The notes beneath the pieces are model-generated. The model saw only the letters and a list, made by a program, of their open reading frames with translations. It ran no database searches and was not told where the DNA came from. From assembly GCF_000013385.1 (NCBI RefSeq), contig NC_007760.1, positions 558,001-622,000 of the forward strand: a stretch of 64,000 nucleotides of DNA, given 5' to 3'. Position numbers and translations under genes: made by a program. The stretch is from Anaeromyxobacter dehalogenans 2CP-C (GTDB lineage Bacteria; Myxococcota; Myxococcia; Myxococcales; Anaeromyxobacteraceae). Below are positions 27,413-40,012 of the stretch, piece by piece (the first letter of the stretch is position 1; each line of letters opens with the position of its first letter).

Positions 27413-28201
27413 CTACTCCGTGTCGTGCACGTGGAAGTGCGCGTGCACCTCGGCCCCGTGCGCGTGCACGTGCCGGTGCGCGAGCCCGCTCTCCACCAGG
27501 GCCCGCTCGTCGCGGACCAGCGCGCCGGTCGGCCCGTCGTGCAGCACGCCGGGGCGATCCGGCCCGAGCAGCACCGCCCGCGTGCCCAGCTCCTCCGCCA
27601 GCGTGAGGTGGTGCGTGGAGGTGACGACGGTCGTCCCCTCCAGCCCGGCCAGGAAGTCCACCAGCCGCCCGGCGCTGGCGGGATCGAGGCCGGCGGTGGG
27701 CTCGTCGAGCAAGAGCACCTTCGGCCCGACGGCCATGAGCGCCGCCATCGCCACCCGCTTCTTCTCGCCGCCGGAGAGCTCGAACGGCGGCCGCTCCTGC
27801 AGCGCCGTGAGGCCGAACGCGCCGGCCCAGCGCGCCACGCGCGCCTCGACCTCGGCCTCGGGGACGCCGAGCTGCCGCGGGCCGAACGCGATCTCGTCGG
27901 CGACCGACGGGTTGAACAGCATCGCGTCCACGTTCTGGAACAGGAGCCCCACCTCGCCGCGGAACGCGCGCCGGAACGCCGCCCCGGCGAGCGCCGCCGG
28001 CTCGAGCGGGCGTCCGCGCCAGCGCACCGCGCCCTCCTGCGGGAACGCGAGCCCGTCCATGAGCTTGAGGAGCGTGGTCTTCCCGCAGCCGTTCACGCCC
28101 AGCAGCACCACCCGCTCGCCCGCGGCCACCGAGAACCGGACGTCGCGCAGCACCGGCCGGCCGCGCAGCTCCATCCGCCGGACGTCCACCTCGAATTCCA
28201 C
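27413..28201 (-). CDS. nickel/cobalt ECF transporter ATPase (CbiO/NikO) with His-rich tail
   Basis: 262 aa. ABC ATPase with Walker A (LGVNGCGKTTL, about 34-44), signature LSGGEKKRVAMA and Walker B VLLLDEPTAGLD. It energises metal uptake by the M and Q components. The last 25 residues are His-rich (HRHVHAHGAEVHAHFHVH), unlike minimal CbiO proteins, and could hold or sense nickel. The start is GTG. Only 2 bp separate it from cbiQ. Nickel specificity is inferred from NikR at the head of the operon. Confidence 0.9.
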   Translation of the reverse strand: MEFEVDVRRMELRGRPVLRDVRFSVAAGERVVLLGVNGCGKTTLLKLMDGLAFPQEGAVRWRGRPLEPAALAGAAFRRAFRGEVGLLFQNVDAMLFNPSVADEIAFGPRQLGVPEAEVEARVARWAGAFGLTALQERPPFELSGGEKKRVAMAALMAVGPKVLLLDEPTAGLDPASAGRLVDFLAGLEGTTVVTSTHHLTLAEELGTRAVLLGPDRPGVLHDGPTGALVRDERALVESGLAHRHVHAHGAEVHAHFHVHDTE

Positions 28202-28203
28202 GG

Positions 28204-28770
28204 CTAGAACCCCCGGGAGCGCATGGCGTCGGACACCTCGCGCGCGTTCCGCACGGCCAGCACCAGCAGCGCGGCGGTGATGCCGCTCGCGTTCCGCACC
28301 ACGTCGAGCGGCCCGGGCCGGCGCGGCAGGCGGCTGCGCAGGCCGTCGGCGGACTCGGTGGCGAGCAGGCGGAGCGCGTGGATCTGCGCGAGCGCGACGA
28401 CCACCAGCCGCGTGGCCGCCGGCCAGGGCGCGAGCGCGCGGAGCAGGTTCACGCGGGCGAGCACCGAGAACGCCAGGAACGCGAGCAGCAGCGTCCGGGC
28501 GGCGAGCGCCAGGAACGGCTGGAGCGGCGGCGCGGCCGGCGCGCCGAGGCGGAGGAAGGCCCAGGACAGCGCGGACATCGCGAGCGTGACCGGCAGCACC
28601 AGGCGGGCCACCCGCGCCAGCGCGCGCGCCATGCCGCGCCGGAACGCGACCGCGGCCGCCAGCGCCGCGAGGCCGAGCGCGCGCAGGTCGGTCACCGCCG
28701 AGAGCGCGAACGCGGCCGCGAGCCAGCCGGCCAGCAGGAGCCGCTCGCGGCGCGGGTCAGGCGACGCCAC
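28204..28770 (-). CDS. nickel/cobalt ECF transporter T component (CbiQ/NikQ)
   Basis: 188 aa with about five hydrophobic segments and the coupling-helix pattern of CbiQ proteins (ESADGLRSRLPRR, then AREVSDAMRSRGF at the C-terminus). It links the ATPase to the substrate-binding M subunit. It is shorter than typical CbiQ (about 220-260 aa), mainly in the N-terminal TM part. The GTG start lies 14 bp inside the cbiM gene, so translation is coupled. Confidence 0.85.
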   Translation of the reverse strand: MASPDPRRERLLLAGWLAAAFALSAVTDLRALGLAALAAAVAFRRGMARALARVARLVLPVTLAMSALSWAFLRLGAPAAPPLQPFLALAARTLLLAFLAFSVLARVNLLRALAPWPAATRLVVVALAQIHALRLLATESADGLRSRLPRRPGPLDVVRNASGITAALLVLAVRNAREVSDAMRSRGF

Positions 28771-29389
28771 GGAGATCCGCCTTCCGCAGGAGCGCCAGCG
28801 CGAGCACGGTGTAGAGCCCCTCCACCAGGCCGGTCACCGCCAGGCTGGGCACGAGCAGCGCCGTCGCGGACACCGCGAACGGCACCGGGAAGTACTCCGG
28901 CGCGATCCGGTGCTGGAGCCCGAGCACGAGCGCCACCGCCCCGGCCGCCACCTGCATCGAGATCCAGGCGCCCAGGAACGCCGCGGCGCGCTGGGCGCGG
29001 CGGCGCAGCAGCCGGTGCACGGCCCAGCCGGCGAGCGGGCCGAGGAGGCCCATGGCGAGCGCGTTCACCGCGAGCACCGTGACGCCGCCCGCCCCGAAGA
29101 ACAGCGCCTGGAGCAGCAGCACCAGCGACTCGCACAGGAACGCGAGCAGCGGGCCGTGGAGGAGCGCGAGCAGCGTCACGCCCACGAGGTGCGTGGACGT
29201 GCCGCCCGGCACCGGGATGGCGATGGTCTGCACCACGAACGCGAGCGCGGTGAGCGCGCCCACCACCGGCAGCGCGTCGGCGGCGTCGCGCCCGAGGTGG
29301 CGCCGCGCGGCGAGCGCCCAGAGCGGCGCCGCGGCCGCGTAGGCCGGCAGGGTGATGGCGGGCGAGAGGAAGCCGTCCGGGACGTGCAT
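28757..29389 (-). CDS. nickel/cobalt ECF transporter S component (CbiM/NikM)
   Basis: 210 aa with seven hydrophobic segments. The N-terminus MHVPDG carries the invariant His2 that helps coordinate the metal in CbiM/NikM proteins, which supports this start. A second conserved segment is GGTSTHLVGV near residue 63. No separate cbiN gene is seen. Instead a NikL-like membrane protein lies directly upstream, an arrangement described for nickel rather than cobalt systems. Confidence 0.92.
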   Translation of the reverse strand: MHVPDGFLSPAITLPAYAAAAPLWALAARRHLGRDAADALPVVGALTALAFVVQTIAIPVPGGTSTHLVGVTLLALLHGPLLAFLCESLVLLLQALFFGAGGVTVLAVNALAMGLLGPLAGWAVHRLLRRRAQRAAAFLGAWISMQVAAGAVALVLGLQHRIAPEYFPVPFAVSATALLVPSLAVTGLVEGLYTVLALALLRKADLRGVA

Positions 29390-29424
29390 CGGCTAGCCCC
29401 CGCGGCCGCGGCCGCCGCGCCGGG

Positions 29425-29865
29425 TCACGGGCGGGCGCCCCTGCGGCGCTGGTAGACGAACAGCGCCGCGAAGATCGCGGCGATCACCGCCGCCCCGACG
29501 AGCGGCCGGAGCGCGAAGCCGGCGCCGGCGGGCGGCGGGCCGGCGGGGACGGCCTGCGCGCCCGCGACCTGTACCGTGGTGTCGAGCCCGTGCCCGCCCG
29601 GGTCCACCACCTTCACGCGCCAGGCGCCGGGCGCGTCGGGCACGAACGCGATCCAGCCGGCGCGATCGGTGCGCCCGCTCTGCCAGGGGGTGCGCGCGTC
29701 GGACGGAGACCAGAGCTCGTAGGCGCGGTCCGCGAGCGGCTCGCCGTCGGACTCGTACACCCGCAGCCCTGCGGCGTGCCCGGGCACGAGCTCGTGCAGG
29801 ACCTCGTGGCCGCGGGCGGCGGCGGGGACGAGCAGCAGCGGGAGGAGGGCGAGGACGGCGCGCAT
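29425..29865 (-). CDS. NikL-like accessory component of the nickel transporter
   Basis: 146 aa. A signal peptide (MRAVLALLPLLLVPAAARG) is followed by a predicted mature N-terminus HEVLHEL, a periplasmic beta-rich domain of about 80 residues (YESDGEPLADRAYELWSP, DRAGWIAFVPDAPGAWRVKVVDPGGHG) and one C-terminal TM helix (about 118-138) with a basic end. Topology and position match the NikL/NikN-type extra subunits of nickel ECF systems. The family assignment rests on layout, not a unique motif. The ATG at 29865 was chosen to expose the signal peptide. Confidence 0.65.
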   Translation of the reverse strand: MRAVLALLPLLLVPAAARGHEVLHELVPGHAAGLRVYESDGEPLADRAYELWSPSDARTPWQSGRTDRAGWIAFVPDAPGAWRVKVVDPGGHGLDTTVQVAGAQAVPAGPPPAGAGFALRPLVGAAVIAAIFAALFVYQRRRGARP

Positions 29866-29893
29866 CGGACGGGCTCCTGTCAGGCGTGCGCCT

Positions 29894-29914
29894 CGCCGGC
29901 GCGAAGCGCCGGCG
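29894..29914. repeat. GC-rich hairpin in the nikL leader
   Basis: Perfect 9-bp arms (29894-29902 and 29906-29914) flank a GAA loop. It lies between the candidate NikR operator and the nikL start, so it would be in the 5' leader if transcription begins near the operator. No T-run follows. Confidence 0.5.
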
Positions 29915-29915
29915 C

Positions 29916-29942
29916 GTAGCACGATTCCGAGGAGCGTGATAC
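29916..29942. promoter_or_regulatory. candidate NikR operator
   Basis: GTAGCAC-N13-GTGATAC is an inverted repeat with one mismatch between half-sites (GTAKCAC). NikR sites are widely spaced inverted repeats, for example GTATGA-N16-TCATAC in E. coli and GTGTTAC-N13/14-GTAACAC in Desulfovibrio, and this matches in spacing and style. It lies 50 bp upstream of nikL and 48 bp downstream of the nikR stop. Nickel-loaded NikR would repress the transporter genes. Confidence 0.5.
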
Positions 29943-29959
29943 TGGAGTCCCGCCGCGGG

Positions 29960-29978
29960 GTCAACCGGACGGGTTGAC
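29960..29978 (-). terminator. hairpin immediately downstream of nikR
   Basis: Perfect 7-bp arms GTCAACC and GGTTGAC enclose a 5-nt loop, starting 12 nt after the nikR stop on the minus strand. No T-run follows. It may end the nikR mRNA so that the transporter genes rely on the promoter near the candidate operator. Confidence 0.4.
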
Positions 29979-29989
29979 GCAACCGCCGC

Positions 29990-30409
29990 TCAGCGCAGGT
30001 CGTGCCCGGCGGTGGCGGGCACGAGCTTGCCGTACTTCACGCCCTTGGTCGCGACCAGGCTCTCGCCCATCGCGACCACGTCCTTGCCGCGCCCGCGCAG
30101 CACCAGCACCTCGAGGCAGTTGTGCGCGTCCATGTGGACGTGCAGCGCCGAGACCACCGCGCGGTGGTTCTCGTGCTGGATGTGGGCGAGCTTCTGCGCC
30201 AGGCTGGAGGAGTCGTGGTCGTAGACCAGCGTCACCACGGCCACGCGCTCCTCGCGACCGGACGACTCGGTGAACGCGCGCTGCACCAGCGCGTCGCGGA
30301 TGAGGTCGCGGACCGCCTCCGAGCGGTTGACGTAGCCCTTCTCGGCGATGAGCTTGTCGAACTGCTCGAGCAGCCCGTCCTCGAGCGAGATCCCGATGCG
30401 CTCCAGCAT
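29990..30409 (-). CDS. nikR: nickel-responsive transcriptional regulator NikR
   Basis: 139 aa. The N-terminal ribbon-helix-helix is at about 1-50 (ERIGISLEDGLLEQFDKLI, YVNRSEAVRDLIRDAL). The C-terminal ACT-like domain has the nickel ligands in HENHRAVVSALHVHMDAHNC, a His...His-x-His...Cys pattern matching the square-planar site of NikR. The ATG giving MLERIG has a GGAGG 5 nt upstream. The transporter operon on the same strand is its obvious target. Confidence 0.95.
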   Translation of the reverse strand: MLERIGISLEDGLLEQFDKLIAEKGYVNRSEAVRDLIRDALVQRAFTESSGREERVAVVTLVYDHDSSSLAQKLAHIQHENHRAVVSALHVHMDAHNCLEVLVLRGRGKDVVAMGESLVATKGVKYGKLVPATAGHDLR

Positions 30410-30516
30410 GTGGCCTCCGCCTCCGTGCGCGCCGACGCTACCGGAGGGCGGCCCGGCCCACAACTGCGCCGCGCCGGGGCGGGCCGCGGGCGCGGCGCCG
30501 TGTTACGTCCCAGGCC

Positions 30517-31987: not shown

Positions 31988-32025
31988 TGTACCGGCCCGT
32001 ACGCGCGGGCGTACCATCCGGTACA
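31988..32025. promoter_or_regulatory. symmetric GTAC array, candidate enhancer (UAS)
   Basis: Four GTAC cores lie at 31989, 31999, 32011 and 32021, spaced 10, 12 and 10 bp and symmetric about 32006.5. The outer pair extends to a perfect 8-bp inverted repeat, TGTACCGG and CCGGTACA. The centre is about 88 bp upstream of the start predicted from the -24/-12 promoter, the usual distance for an NtrC-type activator site. The likely binder is the NtrC-type protein encoded at the end of the operon. Confidence 0.6.
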
Positions 32026-32067
32026 CCCGGCGGCGCTCCGGGCGGCGCAAGTCCGCGAGATCCGGTG

Positions 32068-32083
32068 CGGCACGCGGGTTGCT
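32068..32083 (+). promoter_or_regulatory. sigma-54-type -24/-12 promoter of the secreted-protein/TPR-barrel operon
   Basis: CGGCACG-CGGG-TTGCT matches the consensus TGGCACG-N4-TTGCW at every specified base but the first. The expected start is about 32094. The first gene begins at 32128 with an AGAGAGGA Shine-Dalgarno. It is the best -24/-12 match noticed in the window. Confidence 0.7.
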
Positions 32084-32127: not shown

Positions 32128-32853
32128 ATGAAGCGATGGATCATCGGAGCCGCAGCGGCGCTGCTCGCCTCCGGCGCCGCCCGCGCGCAGACCACCCCGA
32201 CCACCGACCCGGTCCAGCAGCAGGACCGCGACCGCCTCCACGACGGCAGCGGCGCCGGGGACCAGGTCCGCCAGCACGACCGCCTCCACGACGGCAGCGG
32301 GATCGGGGACCAGGTCCGCGAGATGGCGAAGGACCCGGCGCACCGGGCCGACCCCACCGCCATGGGCGACCAGGTCCGCCAGATGGCGCAGGACCGCGAC
32401 CGGCTGAACGATCGCACCGGCACCGGCACCGGCGACCAGACCCACGCGCGGATGCACGACCAGGTCCGCGCCGAGATGCACGAGGCGATGATGCAGCACG
32501 CGCCCACCGGCGCCGGCCACCCCGAGCTGCCCGGCCAGGCGATGCAGGGCATGGCCCAGCGCAGCGCGGCCGAGGCGCGCGAGGCGCAGGCGACCCGCGC
32601 GGCCGAGCGGCACGCGCTCCGCCACCAGGCCGGCCAGGCCGCGACGCAGCGGCCGGAGGGCCCGCAGGGCCAGCACGGCGCCGGACACGGCGCGGGCATG
32701 AACGGCGCGGGCGAGTGCGGCGAGGCCGCCGGCGCGCATCACCTGATGGAGATGCACGGCGGCACCATGGGCGGCCACGGCGGGACCGGCGGCATGGACG
32801 GCGGCTCCGGCACCGGCGGCGGCATGGGCGGCGGCTCCGGCGGGATGCACTGA
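32128..32853 (+). CDS. secreted repeat protein rich in His, Met and Gly
   Basis: 241 aa; no known family recognised. A signal peptide ends at ARAQ (about residue 20). The N-terminal half has four imperfect repeats of the form DRLHDGSGxGDQVRxM (about 32-110, the last two diverged). The middle is Ala/Glu/Arg/Gln-rich and probably helical (ARMHDQVRAEMHEAMMQ, then an alanine-rich stretch). The last 70 residues are Gly/His/Met-rich (GAHHLMEMHGGTMGGHGG) with one Cys near 210, ending in GGMH. The composition suggests a disordered metal-binding or surface-coating protein. It is the first gene behind a sigma-54-type promoter and precedes two TPR envelope proteins. Confidence 0.8.
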   Translation: MKRWIIGAAAALLASGAARAQTTPTTDPVQQQDRDRLHDGSGAGDQVRQHDRLHDGSGIGDQVREMAKDPAHRADPTAMGDQVRQMAQDRDRLNDRTGTGTGDQTHARMHDQVRAEMHEAMMQHAPTGAGHPELPGQAMQGMAQRSAAEAREAQATRAAERHALRHQAGQAATQRPEGPQGQHGAGHGAGMNGAGECGEAAGAHHLMEMHGGTMGGHGGTGGMDGGSGTGGGMGGGSGGMH

Positions 32854-32864
32854 GCGGTGCGGCC

Positions 32865-33473
32865 GTGAGCACGCACGCCCTGATCCTCCTCGGACTCGCG
32901 CTCGCGGCCGGCGCGGACGCCGGCGAGCACCTGCTCGCCGGCGCACGCCATTTCCGCGAGGGCCGGTACACCGAGGCGCTGGTGGAGTTCCGGGTCGCCG
33001 AGCGGATGGGCGATCCGGACGCGCGGCCTTACGCCGGCGCGACCCTGGTGAAGCTGGGCCGCCCCGAGGAGGCGCTCGAGGCCTTCGGCACCGGCGCCGC
33101 CGCGGGCGGCGACGCGCTCATCGCCTACTACCGCGCGCTGGCCTGCTACGACGCGCGCCTGTACCTCTGCGCCGACGCGCAGCTCGCGGGCGTCGGCGGG
33201 CGCTCCGGGCCGCGGGTGGCCGGGGAGGCGGCGCGGCTCCGCGCCGAGATCGCCCGGGCGCTGCGCGGGGAGCCCTCCACCGCGGCGGTGGACTTCTACC
33301 TGGCGCGCTGCGAGGCGCTGGGCCGGGAGCGCCGCCCCGCGGCGGCGGCCGCGTTCTGCCGCGAGGCGGAGGGGCTCGCCGGCCGGCGCCGCGACGGCTA
33401 CCGCCGCGACGAGGCCCGGAAGCTGCTCGCCGGGCTGACCGCCCGCGCCGACGCGGCGGAGGCGCGCCCGTGA
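32865..33473 (+). CDS. secreted TPR-like protein
   Basis: 202 aa, GTG start. A short signal (LILLGLALAAGADA) is followed by TPR-like helices (HLLAGARHFREGRYTEALVEFRVAERMGDPDARPYAG, then KLGRPEEALEAF). Four Cys lie in the second half. It has no catalytic motif. Its stop overlaps the start of the TPR-barrel gene by four bases (GTGA), so the two products are probably made together and could form a periplasmic scaffold with the barrel. Confidence 0.78.
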   Translation: MSTHALILLGLALAAGADAGEHLLAGARHFREGRYTEALVEFRVAERMGDPDARPYAGATLVKLGRPEEALEAFGTGAAAGGDALIAYYRALACYDARLYLCADAQLAGVGGRSGPRVAGEAARLRAEIARALRGEPSTAAVDFYLARCEALGRERRPAAAAAFCREAEGLAGRRRDGYRRDEARKLLAGLTARADAAEARP

Positions 33474-34873
33474 TCGCCGCCCTGCTGCTCGCCGCGGCCG
33501 CCGCGGCCACCTCGCCCTGCGCGCCGGTCTCCCCGGCCGGCGCGGCCGATCCCTCCGCCGCGGCCGAGTACCGGGCCGTCGCGGAGGCGGCGCTCCGGTC
33601 CGGCGACCGCGACACGGCCGCCGCCGCGTTCCGCGCCGCCGCCGAGCGGGATCCTGCCGACGCGCGCTCGCGCGCCGAGTTGACGAAGCTGTGCGCGGCC
33701 GGGCCGGCCGCCGCGGATCCGTTCGAGGAGGGGCTGCGGCTCCTCGACGCCGGCGAGACCCGCCGGGCCGCCGAGGCGTTCGCGGCCGCGCGCGCCGCCG
33801 GCGCCGGCGAGTCCGCCGCGCTGCTGGAGGGCATCTGCCGCTACGACCTCGGCGAGGACGACGCGGCGCGGCCGCTGCTCCGCGAGGCGGAGCGGGTGCC
33901 GGCGCACCGCGAGCTGGCGCGGCTCTACCTGGGCCTGGTGGCGCTCCGCGCCGGGGAGGGCTCGCAGGCGGCGTCGCTGTTCGAGGCCGCCACCGCGAAC
34001 CCGGCGCTGGCCCGCATGGCGACCGACCTCTCGCGGCTCGCCAGCCGCGACGGCCGGCTGGTGCTCTCGGCCTGGGCCGAGAGCGGCTGGGACTCCAACG
34101 TGACGCTCGCGCCGCCGGGCTCGGCGGGCAGCGGCGACGCCGACGGGATCTGGGCGGTGGGCGCGGCGGGGCTGTGGCGGCCGCGCGGCGCGGTGGGGCC
34201 GTACCTGCGCGCCGGCGGCGCAGCGAACGAGCAGTTCCAGCTCGGCGGCTACGACCTGGCGGCGCTCGACGGCGCGGCCGGCTGGCAGGCCCGCGCCGGC
34301 GCGGTGTCGCTCCTCGCGGAGTACGCGTACGGCTACCGCACGCTCGCGGGCGATCCCTACCTCTCCGCGCACCGGCTGCTCGCCTCCGCGGGCGTGCCGC
34401 TGGGGCGGGCGGTGCTGTCCGCGACCGCGTTCGTCCGGCTCGAGTCGTACTCGGGCGCGTACGACCCGTTCTCGGGCGTGCTCGCCCGCGGCGAGGCGAA
34501 GCTGGCGTTCCCGGTGGGCCTGGCCTGGCTCGGCCTCGCCTACGGGGCGGGCCGCGACGCGGCCGACGTCGGCTACCTGTCCTGGGTGGAGCACGGCCCC
34601 CGCGCCGAGCTGCGCCTGCCGCTCGGCGCGCGCGCGCGCCTCGCCGCCGAGGCGGGCGTGTCCTTCCGCGCCTACGACGCGCAGGATCCGGTGCTGCTCG
34701 ACACGCGCCGCGACACCTACCTCGACGCCGCGCTGCTCGGCGAGCTGGACCTGGGCCGCCGCCTCACCGCGCGCCTCGGCCTGCAGGCCCGCCGCGCGCT
34801 GTCCAGCATCCCGTCGCTCGAGTACGACAAGCTGGTGCCGACCGTCGGGCTGCAGTGGACGGCGGGGTACTGA
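33470..34873 (+). CDS. TPR plus beta-barrel outer-membrane protein
   Basis: 467 aa, GTG start. A signal peptide is followed by periplasmic TPR-like helices (about 30-195: repeats around AEAALRSGDRDTAAAAFRAAAERDP and GLRLLDAGETRRAAEAF). From about residue 200 the sequence alternates polar and hydrophobic residues with aromatic girdles, beginning at AWAESGWDSNVTL and ending at TVGLQWTAGY, as in a beta-barrel with a terminal aromatic. Layout resembles Slam proteins or polysaccharide-export TPR barrels (PgaA/BcsC-like). The WDSNV segment recurs in many TPR-barrel proteins. The substrate is unknown, and the repeat protein two genes upstream is a candidate. Overlaps by 1 bp with the kinase gene. 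Confidence 0.78.
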   Translation: MIAALLLAAAAAATSPCAPVSPAGAADPSAAAEYRAVAEAALRSGDRDTAAAAFRAAAERDPADARSRAELTKLCAAGPAAADPFEEGLRLLDAGETRRAAEAFAAARAAGAGESAALLEGICRYDLGEDDAARPLLREAERVPAHRELARLYLGLVALRAGEGSQAASLFEAATANPALARMATDLSRLASRDGRLVLSAWAESGWDSNVTLAPPGSAGSGDADGIWAVGAAGLWRPRGAVGPYLRAGGAANEQFQLGGYDLAALDGAAGWQARAGAVSLLAEYAYGYRTLAGDPYLSAHRLLASAGVPLGRAVLSATAFVRLESYSGAYDPFSGVLARGEAKLAFPVGLAWLGLAYGAGRDAADVGYLSWVEHGPRAELRLPLGARARLAAEAGVSFRAYDAQDPVLLDTRRDTYLDAALLGELDLGRRLTARLGLQARRALSSIPSLEYDKLVPTVGLQWTAGY

Positions 34874-36117
34874 TGGCCCGCGCGCTCGCGCCGCTGCTCG
34901 CCGGCCTGCTGGGCCTGGCCGGCGCGCTCGGCGCGACGCTCGCGCTCCACCGCGCCGCCTCCGCCGCGCTGGACCGCGTGCTGGAGGAGCGGCTCGCCGG
35001 CGCGGGCGCCACCGCCGCCGAGCTGCTCGGGCGCGCCGGCGCCGATCCGGCCGCGCTGCGCGCGGTCATGGCGGCGAACGGCCTGGAGGGCGCCTACGTG
35101 GTGGATCGCGACCTCCGCGTGCTGGCCGACGCCACCGGCGCGGCCGGCGGGCGGGCCGACCTGCTCCGGGTGGACCCGGCGCGGGTGGCGCGCGCGCTCC
35201 GGGGCGAGCCGTCGGTCGCGTTCGCCTACGCGGTCGGGAACCTCCCGGTGGCCACCGGCTACTTCCCGGTGCGCGGGCCGGACGGCGCGCCGGCCGCCGC
35301 GCTGGCGCTCGAGGCCGGGCAGGGCTTCGCCGCCGCGCGCGCCGGGCTGCGCCGGGCGCTGTGGCTCGGGGTGGCGCTCTCGGCGCTCGCCGCCGTGGCG
35401 CTGGCGCTGGCCGCGGCCGGCTTCGCGCGGGCGGAGCGCCGCTCGGCGGCGGCGGCGGCGCGGGCCGCGCGCGGCGAGGCGCTCGCGACCATGGCCGCCA
35501 TGGTGGCGCACGAGATCCGCAACCCGCTCGGCGTCATCCGCGGCGCGGCCGAGCTGGTGCGGGCCCGCTCCGGCGCCGCGCTCGCCCCGCGCGACGTGGA
35601 GGCGCTGGGGGACGTGCTCGGCGAGGTGGAGCGGCTGCGGCGGCTCACCGACGACTTCCTGGACCTGGCGCGCGATCCCGCCATCGCGGCCGAGCCGGCC
35701 GACCTCGCCGAGCTCGCCGCCGAGGCGGCGCGCGCGCTGGGCCGCGCCCACCCGGCGGTCGAGGTGGCGCTCTCGGTGCCGCCGCTCCGGGTGCGCGCCG
35801 ACGCGGCGCGCGTGCGCCAGGTGCTCGCGAACCTGCTCGAGAACGCGGCGCTGGCCGGGGCGCGCCGGGTGGCGGTCACCGCCGGCCCCGCCGGACCCAT
35901 GGCGCGGGTCGAGGTGCGCGACGACGGGCCGGGGGTGGACGCGGACCTGCGCGCGCGCCTGTTCGAGCCGTTCGCGAGCGGGCGGGCCCGCGGCGCCGGC
36001 CTGGGGCTGGCCATCTCCCGGCGCATCGCCGAGCGGCACGGCGGCGCGCTCGAGCTCGCCGACCCGGGCCCACCCGGCGCGGCCTTCGCGCTCACCCTGC
36101 CGCTCGAGCCCGGATAG
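34873..36117 (+). CDS. membrane sensor histidine kinase
   Basis: 414 aa. TM1 is at about 5-27, a periplasmic sensor of about 135 residues follows (AYVVDRDLRVLADATG, then ATGYFPVRGPDGAP, PAS/dCache-like), and TM2 is at about 163-184. The HisKA H-box is VAHEIRNPLG with His213. N, G1 and G2 boxes follow (NLLENAAL, DDGPGVD, GAGLGLAI). This is the NtrB/AtoS-like class that partners with NtrC-type regulators. The ATG overlaps the barrel gene (TGATG), and the response-regulator gene starts 10 bp after its stop. It could sense an envelope cue linked to the exported proteins. Confidence 0.92.
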   Translation: MARALAPLLAGLLGLAGALGATLALHRAASAALDRVLEERLAGAGATAAELLGRAGADPAALRAVMAANGLEGAYVVDRDLRVLADATGAAGGRADLLRVDPARVARALRGEPSVAFAYAVGNLPVATGYFPVRGPDGAPAAALALEAGQGFAAARAGLRRALWLGVALSALAAVALALAAAGFARAERRSAAAAARAARGEALATMAAMVAHEIRNPLGVIRGAAELVRARSGAALAPRDVEALGDVLGEVERLRRLTDDFLDLARDPAIAAEPADLAELAAEAARALGRAHPAVEVALSVPPLRVRADAARVRQVLANLLENAALAGARRVAVTAGPAGPMARVEVRDDGPGVDADLRARLFEPFASGRARGAGLGLAISRRIAERHGGALELADPGPPGAAFALTLPLEPG

Positions 36118-36126
36118 GATCGCCGC

Positions 36127-37458
36127 ATGTCCCGCGTGCTGGTGGTGGACGACGAGCCCAAGCTCGGCCGCTTCGTGCAGGAGATGCTGGAGCTGGACGG
36201 GCACGAGGTGGTGCGCGCCGGCGGCGGGGCCGAGGCGCTGGCGCGGCTCGGCGAGGGCGCCTTCGACGTGGTTGTGACCGACCTGCGCATGCCGCAGGTG
36301 GACGGGCTGGCGGTGCTCCGCGCGGCCCGCGCGCGCACGCCGCCGCCCGAGGTGGTGATGATGACCGCGCACGGCTCGGCCGAGAGCGCGGTCGAGGCCA
36401 TGAAGGCGGGCGCGGCCGACTACGTGACGAAGCCGTTCCCGATGGACGAGCTGCGGCTCCGGGTGCGCCGCCTCGCCGAGCAGCGCGCCGCCGCGGCCCG
36501 GAGCGCCGGCCTGGTGGCGCGGCTCGCCCCGGACCTGGTGGCGGAGAGCGCGGGCATGCGCGCGGCGGTGGCGGCGGCCGAGCAGGTGGCGGCCACCGAC
36601 GCGACCGTGCTGCTGCTGGGCGAGAGCGGCACCGGGAAGAGCCAGCTCGCGCGGCTCGTCCACTGGCGGAGCCGGCGCGCCGCCGGGCCGCTGGTCGAGG
36701 TGCACTGCGCGGCGCTGCCCGACACGCTGCTCGAGGGCGAGCTGTTCGGCCACGAGCGCGGCGCGTTCACCGGCGCCGCGCAGCGCCGCCCCGGCCACCT
36801 CGCCGCCGCCGACGGCGGGACGCTGTTCCTCGACGAGATCGGCGAGATCCCCCCCTCCACCCAGGTGAAGCTGCTCCGCTTCCTGCAGGACCGCAGCTTC
36901 GTGCCGCTCGGCGCGACCGCGCCCCGCACGGTGGACGCGCGGGTGGTGGCCGCGACGAACCGCGACCTGGCCGCGGCGGTCGGCGAGGGCGCGTTCCGCG
37001 AGGACCTCTACTACCGCCTGGACGTGTTCGCGATCCGCGTGCCGCCGCTGCGCGAGCGCCGCGAGGACGTGCTGCCCATCGCCGAGCGCCACCTGGCCGG
37101 CCACGGCGTGCCGCCGGAGCGGCTCGGCCCGGCGGCCCGCGCGAGGCTGCTGGAGCGTCCGTGGCCCGGCAACGTCCGCGAGCTGGAGAACGCGCTCGAG
37201 CGCGCGCTCATCCTGGCGGGCGAGGGCGAGATCCGCGCCGAGCACGTCGCCCCCGGCGCGGCGCCGCGGGCCGGCGGGCGCGCCGCCGAGCTGCTGGTGG
37301 AGGGCTTCGGCCTCGACGCGTTCGAGCGCGAGGTGATCGAGGCGGCGCTGGAGCGCGCCGGCGGGAACAAGACGCGCGCCGCGAGGCTGCTCGGGGTGAC
37401 CCGGCGCCGGCTGTACTCGCTGCTCGCGAGCCACGGGCTCGCGGTGGAGGGCGAGTAG
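36127..37458 (+). CDS. NtrC-family sigma-54-dependent response regulator
   Basis: 443 aa. Receiver (1-115) with phospho-acceptor Asp52 and acidic pocket DDE (8-10), AAA+ domain (about 138-370) with Walker A GESGTGKS (165-172), the sigma-54 contact loop GAFTGA (212-217) and Walker [10 protein letters not shown] (231-239). A C-terminal Fis-type helix-turn-helix ends in [14 protein letters not shown]. All elements needed to activate sigma-54 RNA polymerase are intact. It is the last gene of an operon whose own upstream region has a -24/-12 promoter and a GTAC array, so positive autoregulation is likely. Confidence 0.95.
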
Positions 37459-37622: not shown

Positions 37623-38804
37623 CTACCCGCCGCTCGTGGTCGCCGGCTTTGCGCCGAGCAGCGTGGCGAGATCGCCGGGGTAGACCTTGCCCCCGTACAC
37701 GTAGCTCGGGGTCCCGCGCACGCCGGCCTGGATGGCGCTCTCGATGTCGTCGGCGAGGCGGCGCTCGGTGTCGGGCGACGAGAGGCACGCGTCGAAGCGC
37801 GGGAGGTCGAGGCCGACTCGCCGGGCCAGCTCCCGCACCGGCGCCTTCTCCGCCTGGTTCCGGAACAAGGCGTCGTCCATCTGCTCGAAGCGGCCCTGCG
37901 CCTCGGCGCAGATGGCGGCGCGGGCGAGATCGCAGGCGCCGACGTGGAACGGCCGGGTGAGCTTCGGGTTGCAGGTGTCGTCGAGGGGGAAGTGGCGCCG
38001 CACCACCTTCACGTCGGGCCGGGACGCCAGGATCGGCTTGTTGGCCTCGTGGCTCTTGGCGCAGAACGGGCACTCGTAGTCGCTGTACTCGTACAGCACG
38101 ATCGAGCCGGGGGGGCCGAGCTTCGCGGCCGGCGCGGCGGCCGCCGGCGCGCCCGTGCCCGTGCCCGCGGGCGGCGGGCCGGCGTAGAACGCGAACAGGC
38201 CGCCGGAGGCGGCGAGGAGCACGAGCGCCGCGGACGCGGACGCGAGCGGGCGCGCCCGCAGCGCGGCCAGGTCCGCCCGGATCGCGGCCGCGGGGCCGCC
38301 GGCGCGCCGCGCCAGGACGAACGCGCAGCCGGCGAGCGCGAACGAGACCAGCCAGGAGCCCGCGCACACGATGCACAGGGAGCCGATCACCAGCTCGGAG
38401 ATGGCCGCCAGGAACACCGCCCCCGCCGCCATGAAGCCCGACGCGGCGAGCAGGAGCCCGGCCGGCCAGCCCGCCTCCGCGCGCGGCCGGCGCAGCGCCG
38501 ACGCCGCGAGCGCGGCGATGACGAGGTACGCCAGGAGGCCCCAGGCCGCGAGGGGCACCCCGAGCAGCGACGACCATGCGCTCAGGGCCACCTTGTCGCA
38601 GTTTACGCGCTCGGAGATGGCGCAGAAGCTGGAGGCGCCGCCGGCGTGGGCGCGGCCGTGCAGGAGCGTCAGCTCCGCGGCGAGGCCGGCGCCTGCCAGC
38701 GCCAGGAGGAGGATGGCGAGCTCGAGCGCGCGCGAGCGGGCGGAGGTCCCCCCGCGATCGGGCTGCTTGCCCCTGGAGGTGTCGGGTACGTGGGGTGCGG
38801 GCAC
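37623..38804 (-). CDS. VKOR-DsbA fusion, disulfide-bond formation enzyme
   Basis: 393 aa. The N-terminal half is a VKOR-type membrane domain with Cys61/Cys69 in the loop and the redox pair CIVC (Cys144/Cys147), plus about five TM helices. The C-terminal half is a periplasmic DsbA-like thioredoxin domain with CPFC at 245-248 and the cis-Pro segment GTPSY. The fusion can oxidise substrate thiols and pass electrons to quinone by itself. The GTG at 38804 was chosen as the nearest start before TM1; no strong Shine-Dalgarno is visible. It may supply disulfides to the Cys-rich secreted proteins of the window. Confidence 0.9.
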   Translation of the reverse strand: MPAPHVPDTSRGKQPDRGGTSARSRALELAILLLALAGAGLAAELTLLHGRAHAGGASSFCAISERVNCDKVALSAWSSLLGVPLAAWGLLAYLVIAALAASALRRPRAEAGWPAGLLLAASGFMAAGAVFLAAISELVIGSLCIVCAGSWLVSFALAGCAFVLARRAGGPAAAIRADLAALRARPLASASAALVLLAASGGLFAFYAGPPPAGTGTGAPAAAAPAAKLGPPGSIVLYEYSDYECPFCAKSHEANKPILASRPDVKVVRRHFPLDDTCNPKLTRPFHVGACDLARAAICAEAQGRFEQMDDALFRNQAEKAPVRELARRVGLDLPRFDACLSSPDTERRLADDIESAIQAGVRGTPSYVYGGKVYPGDLATLLGAKPATTSGG

Positions 38805-38860
38805 GGGGGGATGGTAACCGGAAGTCGCCCGGCCGTCCTGCCTACCGGCGTGCCCCACCG

Positions 38861-40012
38861 TCAGGCGGGGTACTCGAGCGGAAGCCGGAGCGAGAACCGG
38901 GCGCCCTTGCCCGCGGCGCTCTCGACCGCGATGTCTCCGCCGTGCGCGTTCAGGATCTGCCGGGCCGTCCACAGGCCCACGCCGAGCCCTGGGTAGTGCG
39001 CCACCGGCGCCGCCCGCTCGAAGCGCTCGAACACGCGCGACTGGTCCTCGAGCGCGATGCCCGGCCCCCGGTCCTCGATGACCACGACCGCCCGCCGGTC
39101 GTCGCGGCTGGCCGTGACCTCGATGGGCGAGCGCCCGCCGTACTTCACCGCGTTGCCGAGCACCGCCGCGATCGCGTCGCCCACCCGGCGGCGGTCCCAC
39201 CGGCCGGGGATCGGCCCGGGCGCGTGCACGCTCAGCGCCGTCCCCCTGCGCCGGACGTCCGGCTCGAAGCGCGCCGCCACCTCGTGCACCAGCTCGGCGA
39301 GGTCGAACGGGGCCGGCTCGAGCTGCAGCGCGCCGCGCGACATCTCGGCGAGGTCGAGCAGCCCGCTCACCAGCTCGCCCAGCCGCGCCACGTGGCGCTG
39401 CAGCTGCTCGAGGCGCTCCACCTGCTGGCCCGTGACCGCCTGCCCCTCGTGCGTCTGCCGGGCGAGCGACTGGGTCACGAGCTGCACGCAGGTGAGCGGG
39501 GTGCGCAGCTCGTGGGACGCGACCGCCAGGAAGTCGTCGCGCGAGCGCACCGCCTCGCGCGCCTCGGCCAGGTTCCGCCGCGCCTCCTCGCCGCGCCGGC
39601 GCTCGGTGAGGTCGCGGGTGATCTTCGCGAACCCGCGGAGCGCGCCGTCCGGGCCGCGCAGGGCGGTGACCACCACGCTCGCGAAGAAGCGCGTGCCGTC
39701 GCGCCGTACGCGCCAGCCCTCGTCCTCGCTCGAGCCCTGCTCGGCCGCCTCGCGCAGCTCCGCGTCCGGCTTGCCGCGGCGGACGTCCTCGGGCGTGAAG
39801 AACACCGCGAAGTGCCGCCCCACGATCTCGTGCGCCGGGTACCCCTTGATCCGCTCCGCGCCCGGGTTCCAGGTGAGCACGTGGCCCGCCGGATCCAGCA
39901 TGAAGATCGCGTACTCCTTCACGCTGTCCACGAGGAGGCGGAGGAGCTGCCCCTGCTCCTGCAGGTGCCCCGGGCCGCCCGGGGGCGGGCGATGGTCGTT
40001 GGGGTCGCTCAT
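38861..40012 (-). CDS. PAS-domain sensor histidine kinase (soluble)
   Basis: 383 aa. One PAS domain (about 24-137: DSVKEYAIFMLDPAGHVLTWNPGAERIKGYPAHEIVGRHF) with a PAC segment, a HisKA domain with H-box ASHELRTPLT (His167) and an HATPase domain (DRGPGI, GLGVGLW). There are no TM segments, so it senses a cytoplasmic cue. No response regulator is adjacent, so it is an orphan kinase. It is divergent from the renalase-like gene across 255 bp in which I see no clear promoter element. Confidence 0.92.
   Translation of the reverse strand: MSDPNDHRPPPGGPGHLQEQGQLLRLLVDSVKEYAIFMLDPAGHVLTWNPGAERIKGYPAHEIVGRHFAVFFTPEDVRRGKPDAELREAAEQGSSEDEGWRVRRDGTRFFASVVVTALRGPDGALRGFAKITRDLTERRRGEEARRNLAEAREAVRSRDDFLAVASHELRTPLTCVQLVTQSLARQTHEGQAVTGQQVERLEQLQRHVARLGELVSGLLDLAEMSRGALQLEPAPFDLAELVHEVAARFEPDVRRRGTALSVHAPGPIPGRWDRRRVGDAIAAVLGNAVKYGGRSPIEVTASRDDRRAVVVIEDRGPGIALEDQSRVFERFERAAPVAHYPGLGVGLWTARQILNAHGGDIAVESAAGKGARFSLRLPLEYPA

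Follow-up and report, generated by a model that had tools for sequence, protein, structure and literature searches.

A five-gene myxobacterial operon with a Slam-like TPR-barrel as a candidate sigma-54-controlled export module for a secreted repeat protein

Introduction

What does a small secreted protein, built of repeats and a His/Met/Gly-rich tail, do beside a gene for an outer-membrane barrel? A locus of the soil bacterium Anaeromyxobacter dehalogenans 2CP-C, whose genome is a single contig of 5.01 Mb, raises this question. All coordinates, unless another locus is named, refer to the window, the whole stretch of 64,000 nucleotides that was analysed (NC_007760.1, positions 558,001 to 622,000). 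A sequence-only reading of the locus had proposed that the repeat protein is displayed or released by a Slam-like TPR-barrel, and that it may bind a metal such as copper or nickel. Our analysis suggests that the operon probably serves export across the outer membrane by a relative of the type 11 secretion system (T11SS), that the cargo is disordered, and that the operon is switched by a sigma-54 promoter of its own.

Results

Organization of the operon

The operon consists of five genes, all on the plus strand:

32128-32853, plus strand: gene A, secreted low-complexity repeat protein of 241 aa, the proposed cargo
32865-33473, plus strand: gene B, TPR protein of the periplasm, carrying a signal peptide, with orthologues in nearly all loci
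33470-34873, plus strand: gene C, TPR domain followed by a predicted 14-strand outer-membrane barrel
34873-36117, plus strand: gene D, membrane histidine kinase (HisKA and HATPase_c), with an orthologue after C in most loci
36127-37458, plus strand: gene E, NtrC-family sigma-54 response regulator with receiver, AAA+ and Fis HTH domains

By coordinates, A and B are separated by 11 bp, and both B/C and C/D overlap. Third-position GC is 0.98-0.99 in A, B and C and 0.98-1.00 over all five genes, which supports their coding status. Domain searches returned weak TPR matches for B and stronger ones for C, and no sensor domain was found in D using Pfam. The TPR protein and TPR-barrel protein described downstream of A by the sequence-only reading are present as B and C; that reading had overlooked D and E, the promoter elements upstream of A, and a conserved core of A that is independent of the repeats. 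Downstream of the operon, on the minus strand, positions 37623-39200 encode an apparent VKOR-thioredoxin fusion, named by eye.

Protein A and its family

The following features were assigned to A:

32128-32187, plus strand: signal peptide of about 20 aa, with cleavage between ARA and Q, read by eye and by hydropathy score
32227-32436, plus strand: DRLHDGSGxGDQVR repeats, present in the closest relatives only, inserted ahead of the core that the family conserves
32467-32532, plus strand: core motif, RAEMHEAMMQHAPTGAGHPELP, with the family pattern [HR]xxMxEAMxxxATLPxxPxLP
32719-32757, plus strand: second motif, GEAAGAHHLMEMH, with the family pattern xAAGxxRxxxxR/H
32758-32850, plus strand: Gly/Met/His tail, clade-specific by comparison of composition across the family

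Reading the sequence by eye bears out a signal peptide (MKRWIIGAAAALLASGAARA, followed by QTT), a His/Met/Gly tail and the absence of a lipobox. All four of the repeats reported earlier could be located, of which two are nearly identical (DRLHDGSGAGDQVR and DRLHDGSGIGDQVR) and two are degenerate (ADPTAMGDQVR and DRLNDRTGTGTGDQT). The A protein of a sister genome (L155, a contig that ends before C) holds more DRLHDGSG copies than that of the window. Across the family alignment, the core motif lies near the mature N-terminus and the second motif near the tail.

An HMM of the A family, built with the window A and its near-identical twin excluded, recovered the window A at E 1.9e-12, with the next unrelated ORF at E 2.1, whereas 500 shuffled sequences of equal composition yielded no match at E<=10. 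Judged from these sequence comparisons, the A family is real, and neither Pfam nor NCBIfam holds a model for it. A search of 60 relatives found a single A in the window's own genome, while the other matches were mostly the known loci, with one further match outside them (G003:C90). At another locus (L044, genome G035), a second A-family gene lies beyond E on the plus strand (255-674), facing the operon, and its product is possibly an extra cargo of the same locus.

Conservation of the A-C pairing

In 34 of the 34 related loci whose contig extends far enough, three of them without the kinase and regulator, the gene immediately before B, or before C if B is missing or joined to it, encodes an A-type protein, each time small, low-complexity and with a signal peptide. 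The gene order B-C-D-E holds throughout the family and also in remote members of the taxonomic order, although in genomes of 12-13 Mb a few genes intervene between D and E. Two of the loci that lack D and E (L045 and L046) have B fused to C, with A adjoining C, and a third (L101, 5562-7513) consists of A and the barrel gene alone, with B, D and E all absent. Since A stays beside C in all three of these loci, A tracks the barrel and not the kinase; the proposal that a candidate cargo sits beside the barrel gene is well supported by this. Another barrel gene without kinase or regulator (L103, 152-1417) has its upstream stretch beyond the contig end, and at L062 (6551-9158) a GFDSNV TPR-barrel gene is directly followed by a gene whose secreted product looks FecR-like by eye.

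The natural fusion of B to C, found in two genomes, was aligned from L059 and L060, which are the same genes taken from Anaeromyxobacter records. It was modelled as a continuous TPR solenoid running into 14 strands, with a pLDDT of 88.8. Using a single protein as the query, a first scan of genome contigs gave no match. At E<=1e-8, 38 of the 145 genomes searched in the order gave a match to C, some few of which covered the TPRs alone; at E<=1e-20, C was detected in 33 of 195 genomes of the phylum, all from the same order.

Predicted fold and barrel homology of C

The sequence-only reading proposed modelling the barrel and comparing it with Slam, PgaA and BcsC. AlphaFold2, supplied with an alignment of 16 sequences, predicted C with a pLDDT of 90.2, with TPR helices at residues 28-192 and 14 strands at residues 197-466. 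The first barrel strand carries a motif common to Slam-family proteins:

34085-34102, plus strand: GWDSNV motif of C

Using Foldseek, the whole TPR-barrel layout retrieved BcsC as its top solved structure. The barrel alone best matched CymA and OmpG (Z about 22, 8-10% identity), which are passive monomeric 14-strand porins. No solved Slam structure was among the structure matches of C, which carries no weight either way. The BcsC barrel has 16 strands. T11SS barrels are 14-stranded and that of PgaA is 16-stranded (PMC8406197).

No curated barrel family matched C or 20 of its relatives, and PF04575 was absent at E<=1 using an alignment of these 21 sequences. Two members of the C family matched PF24575 (Slam TPR) at E 0.06. 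A search of the window's own genome with PF04575 came back empty, as did its controls, so that it carries no information. Because the Pfam PF04575 model did not match the C family, we collected members of PF04575 from Gammaproteobacteria and aligned them for profile comparison. Full-length profiles of C and of these members matched at 99.1%. The barrel-only comparison, chosen to exclude similarity between the TPRs, yielded 98.8% (E 1.4e-16 over 255 columns), and was still at 97.6-98.0% with the Slam profiles reduced to four rows. In contrast, control profiles that were reversed or had their columns shuffled did not exceed 1.2%, and the barrel profile of C matched neither BcsC barrels (0.7%) nor PgaA barrels (0.5%). 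Membership of C in the BcsC or PgaA families was ruled out, with no profile match to BCSC_C or PgaA_barrel.

With barrels that match PF04575 members and a Pfam model that is silent, C is on profile grounds a remote homologue of T11SS outer-membrane proteins, below the reach of the PF04575 model, and not a catalogued member. The barrel homology and 14-strand layout of a T11SS outer-membrane protein were thus found, and a curated PF04575 match was not. Both the model and the profile comparison agree with the earlier description of C as Slam-like.

Promoter and upstream array

Two candidate regulatory elements lie upstream of A:

31988-32025, plus strand: candidate upstream activating sequence, an inverted repeat with four GTAC half-sites at spacings of 10/12/10 (two 16-bp dyads)
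32067-32083, plus strand: sigma-54 -24/-12 element, GCGGCACGCGGGTTGCT, with a weighted score of 20/21

In the window, the sigma-54 consensus alone performs no better than chance, and the site is convincing only because it is conserved. A site at empirical p<=0.05 was found in 27 of 31 regions upstream of A genes, in most cases 59-67 bp ahead of the start assigned to A; no recognisable site was found at L038, L039 and L047. Most relatives also carry GTAC-N6-GTAC(-N8-GTAC) at a matching distance upstream of A, and at most loci this array is found about another 50-80 bp upstream of the sigma-54 site. Within the 5-Mb genome, the triple GTAC pattern has a single location. The conserved promoter and upstream dyads that would mark a sigma-54 regulon with its own NtrC-type activator were both found, and the domain make-up and position of E suggest that it binds the GTAC array.

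Metal binding and nickel genes

His and Met together make up about 15% of the window A, and most A proteins of the window's family reach comparable levels. One sub-group within it (L040, L043, L045 and L046) has only about 1% Met, and in A-family proteins from outside the window's family Met does not exceed about 3% and His mostly stays at or below 3%. On the minus strand at 27413-30463, the window holds genes of a nickel/cobalt-type ECF transporter, including an ATPase with a His-rich tail and a CbiM-like component, together with a NikR regulator that scored above its cut-off. Apart from the window, only the nearest sister has NikR and the ECF transporter adjoining the operon. Since the family does not conserve a high His/Met content and the nickel genes are local, metal binding is at most a clade-specific addition, and we dropped it as the core role of A. 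The His/Met tail itself is, judging by composition, a clade-specific decoration.

A parallel pairing in Gammaproteobacteria

A scan with the profile also returned Gammaproteobacteria that carry the same kind of TPR-GYDSNV barrel; in the family of one of them it is present in 23 of 24 genomes. The gammaproteobacterial TPR-barrel genes are those of L063 and L111-L124. Most of the gammaproteobacterial loci read have, preceding the barrel gene, a gene for an acidic repeat protein (DDRDDAMDD-type) with a signal peptide and a conserved start, DLDDLDxTIRVIxSDD...NELSLPD. The profile of the gammaproteobacterial barrel matches C at 96.6% and the Slam profile at 98.8%. The A HMM found no match in the acidic repeat protein, which was therefore ruled out as a member of the A family; by this test the pairing is a parallel case, and homology to A is not demonstrated.

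Discussion

A proposed export module and its alternatives

We propose that A is exported across the outer membrane through C. Made with a Sec-type signal peptide, A would enter the periplasm unfolded or disordered, where the TPR grooves of B and C may hold it by its EAMxxxATLPxxPxLP core, and the 14-strand barrel of C would pass it through or display it. D would sense an envelope or extracellular signal and phosphorylate E, and E, on binding the GTAC array, would turn on the operon's own sigma-54 promoter. Of these steps, export of A, TPR recognition of the core motif and binding of the array by E are inferred. For this model we count several computed results: the gene order and its conservation, the TPR and 14-strand fold of C with its barrel match to PF04575 members, the A family with its motif and its invariant place, kept even where D and E are absent, the B-C fusion, the parallel pairing in Gammaproteobacteria, and the conserved promoter and array. 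Against it we count that A has no eight-strand barrel domain, that the PF04575 model is silent on the C family, that co-function alone, without transport, could explain why A lies beside C, and that the top structure matches of the barrel, CymA and OmpG, are passive porins.

This last point, along with the first place of BcsC for the whole layout, would suit a C that is a porin or polysaccharide exporter, with A and B as structural or lubricating accessories. We consider this unlikely, as the barrel profile separates PF04575 members from BcsC and PgaA by the scores given above, and as inspection found no polysaccharide synthesis gene in the operon or kept beside it in relatives. A different role for A, that of a periplasmic accessory sensor like ZraP, which would bind metal or unfolded protein and damp D while C serves as a separate co-induced channel, draws on the sigma-54 promoter, on the His/Met-rich A of this clade, and on D and E, for which ZraS/ZraR and AtoS/AtoC are closer matches than most families. 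Nevertheless, D and E fall far under the cut-offs for ZraS (121 vs 479 bits) and ZraR (365 vs 760 bits), A matches no Pfam metal-resistance domain, its His/Met content is unconserved, and A stays paired with C at loci that lack D and E. On this last ground the ZraP-type role was rejected, and we hold the reading as a whole to be improbable.

C may also display A rather than release it, making A a length-variable coat or adhesin and leaving the transport step unchanged. The number of repeats in A differs between close relatives (the window and L155), as is often the case for surface proteins, and features of the bacterial exterior are commonly under sigma-54 control (PMC3162934). A has, however, no lipobox, sortase-like or other recognised anchor, and we give display only a slim chance.

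Returning to export of A through C, we tentatively suggest, as a possibility that we do not favour strongly, that Slam-related TPR-barrels of at least two phyla form a separate export class which carries short disordered repeat proteins by means of an N-terminal LP-type motif, this motif replacing the eight-strand barrel domain of known T11SS cargo.

Comparison with known systems

Similar to this operon, ZraP-ZraS-ZraR combines a small secreted protein, an NtrC-type regulator and a sigma-54 promoter, but D and E lie under the ZraS and ZraR NCBIfam cut-offs and A tracks the barrel, not the kinase. BcsC and PgaA share with C a periplasmic TPR region followed by a barrel; they differ in having 16-strand barrels, in giving no profile match to C, and in their polysaccharide genes, which are absent from this module. 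TPR chaperones of the SycD/PcrH type suggested the analogy of a TPR groove that binds a Pro-rich peptide: B has a weak match to SycD (E 0.012, 15 bits vs a cut-off of 105), and PcrH is one of the many structures that tie as matches to the TPR region of C. In contrast to these chaperones, no type III genes lie near the operon, and B has a signal peptide.

The closest comparison is with Slam/T11SS proteins (PF04575, DUF560, SlipAM), which, like C, have an N-terminal TPR region and a 14-strand C-terminal barrel, a GYDSNV-type motif in strand 1, C-terminal strand motifs and a cargo gene next door. They differ from the present case in that C lies under PF04575 detection, part of the TPR region is here encoded by a separate gene (B), the proposed cargo has no eight-strand barrel, and fixed sigma-54 two-component genes belong to this operon. 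An eight-strand beta-barrel domain is the hallmark of verified T11SS cargo, and a cargo without one would require a new targeting signal (PMC12282271). Pfam found no match to the cargo barrels of T11SS cluster 1 (TbpBBD or lipoprotein C) in the short, low-complexity A. Two surveys of the T11SS treat Proteobacteria and name myxobacteria only for other proteins, and in the 2025 survey most clusters of outer-membrane proteins have no known cargo (PMC12282271). With one candidate cargo family, a short motif, a natural fusion and a dedicated switch, this operon is a small, culturable and self-contained case in which cargo recognition by TPR-barrel exporters is directly testable, and the export that we infer here would extend the Slam-like type to myxobacteria.
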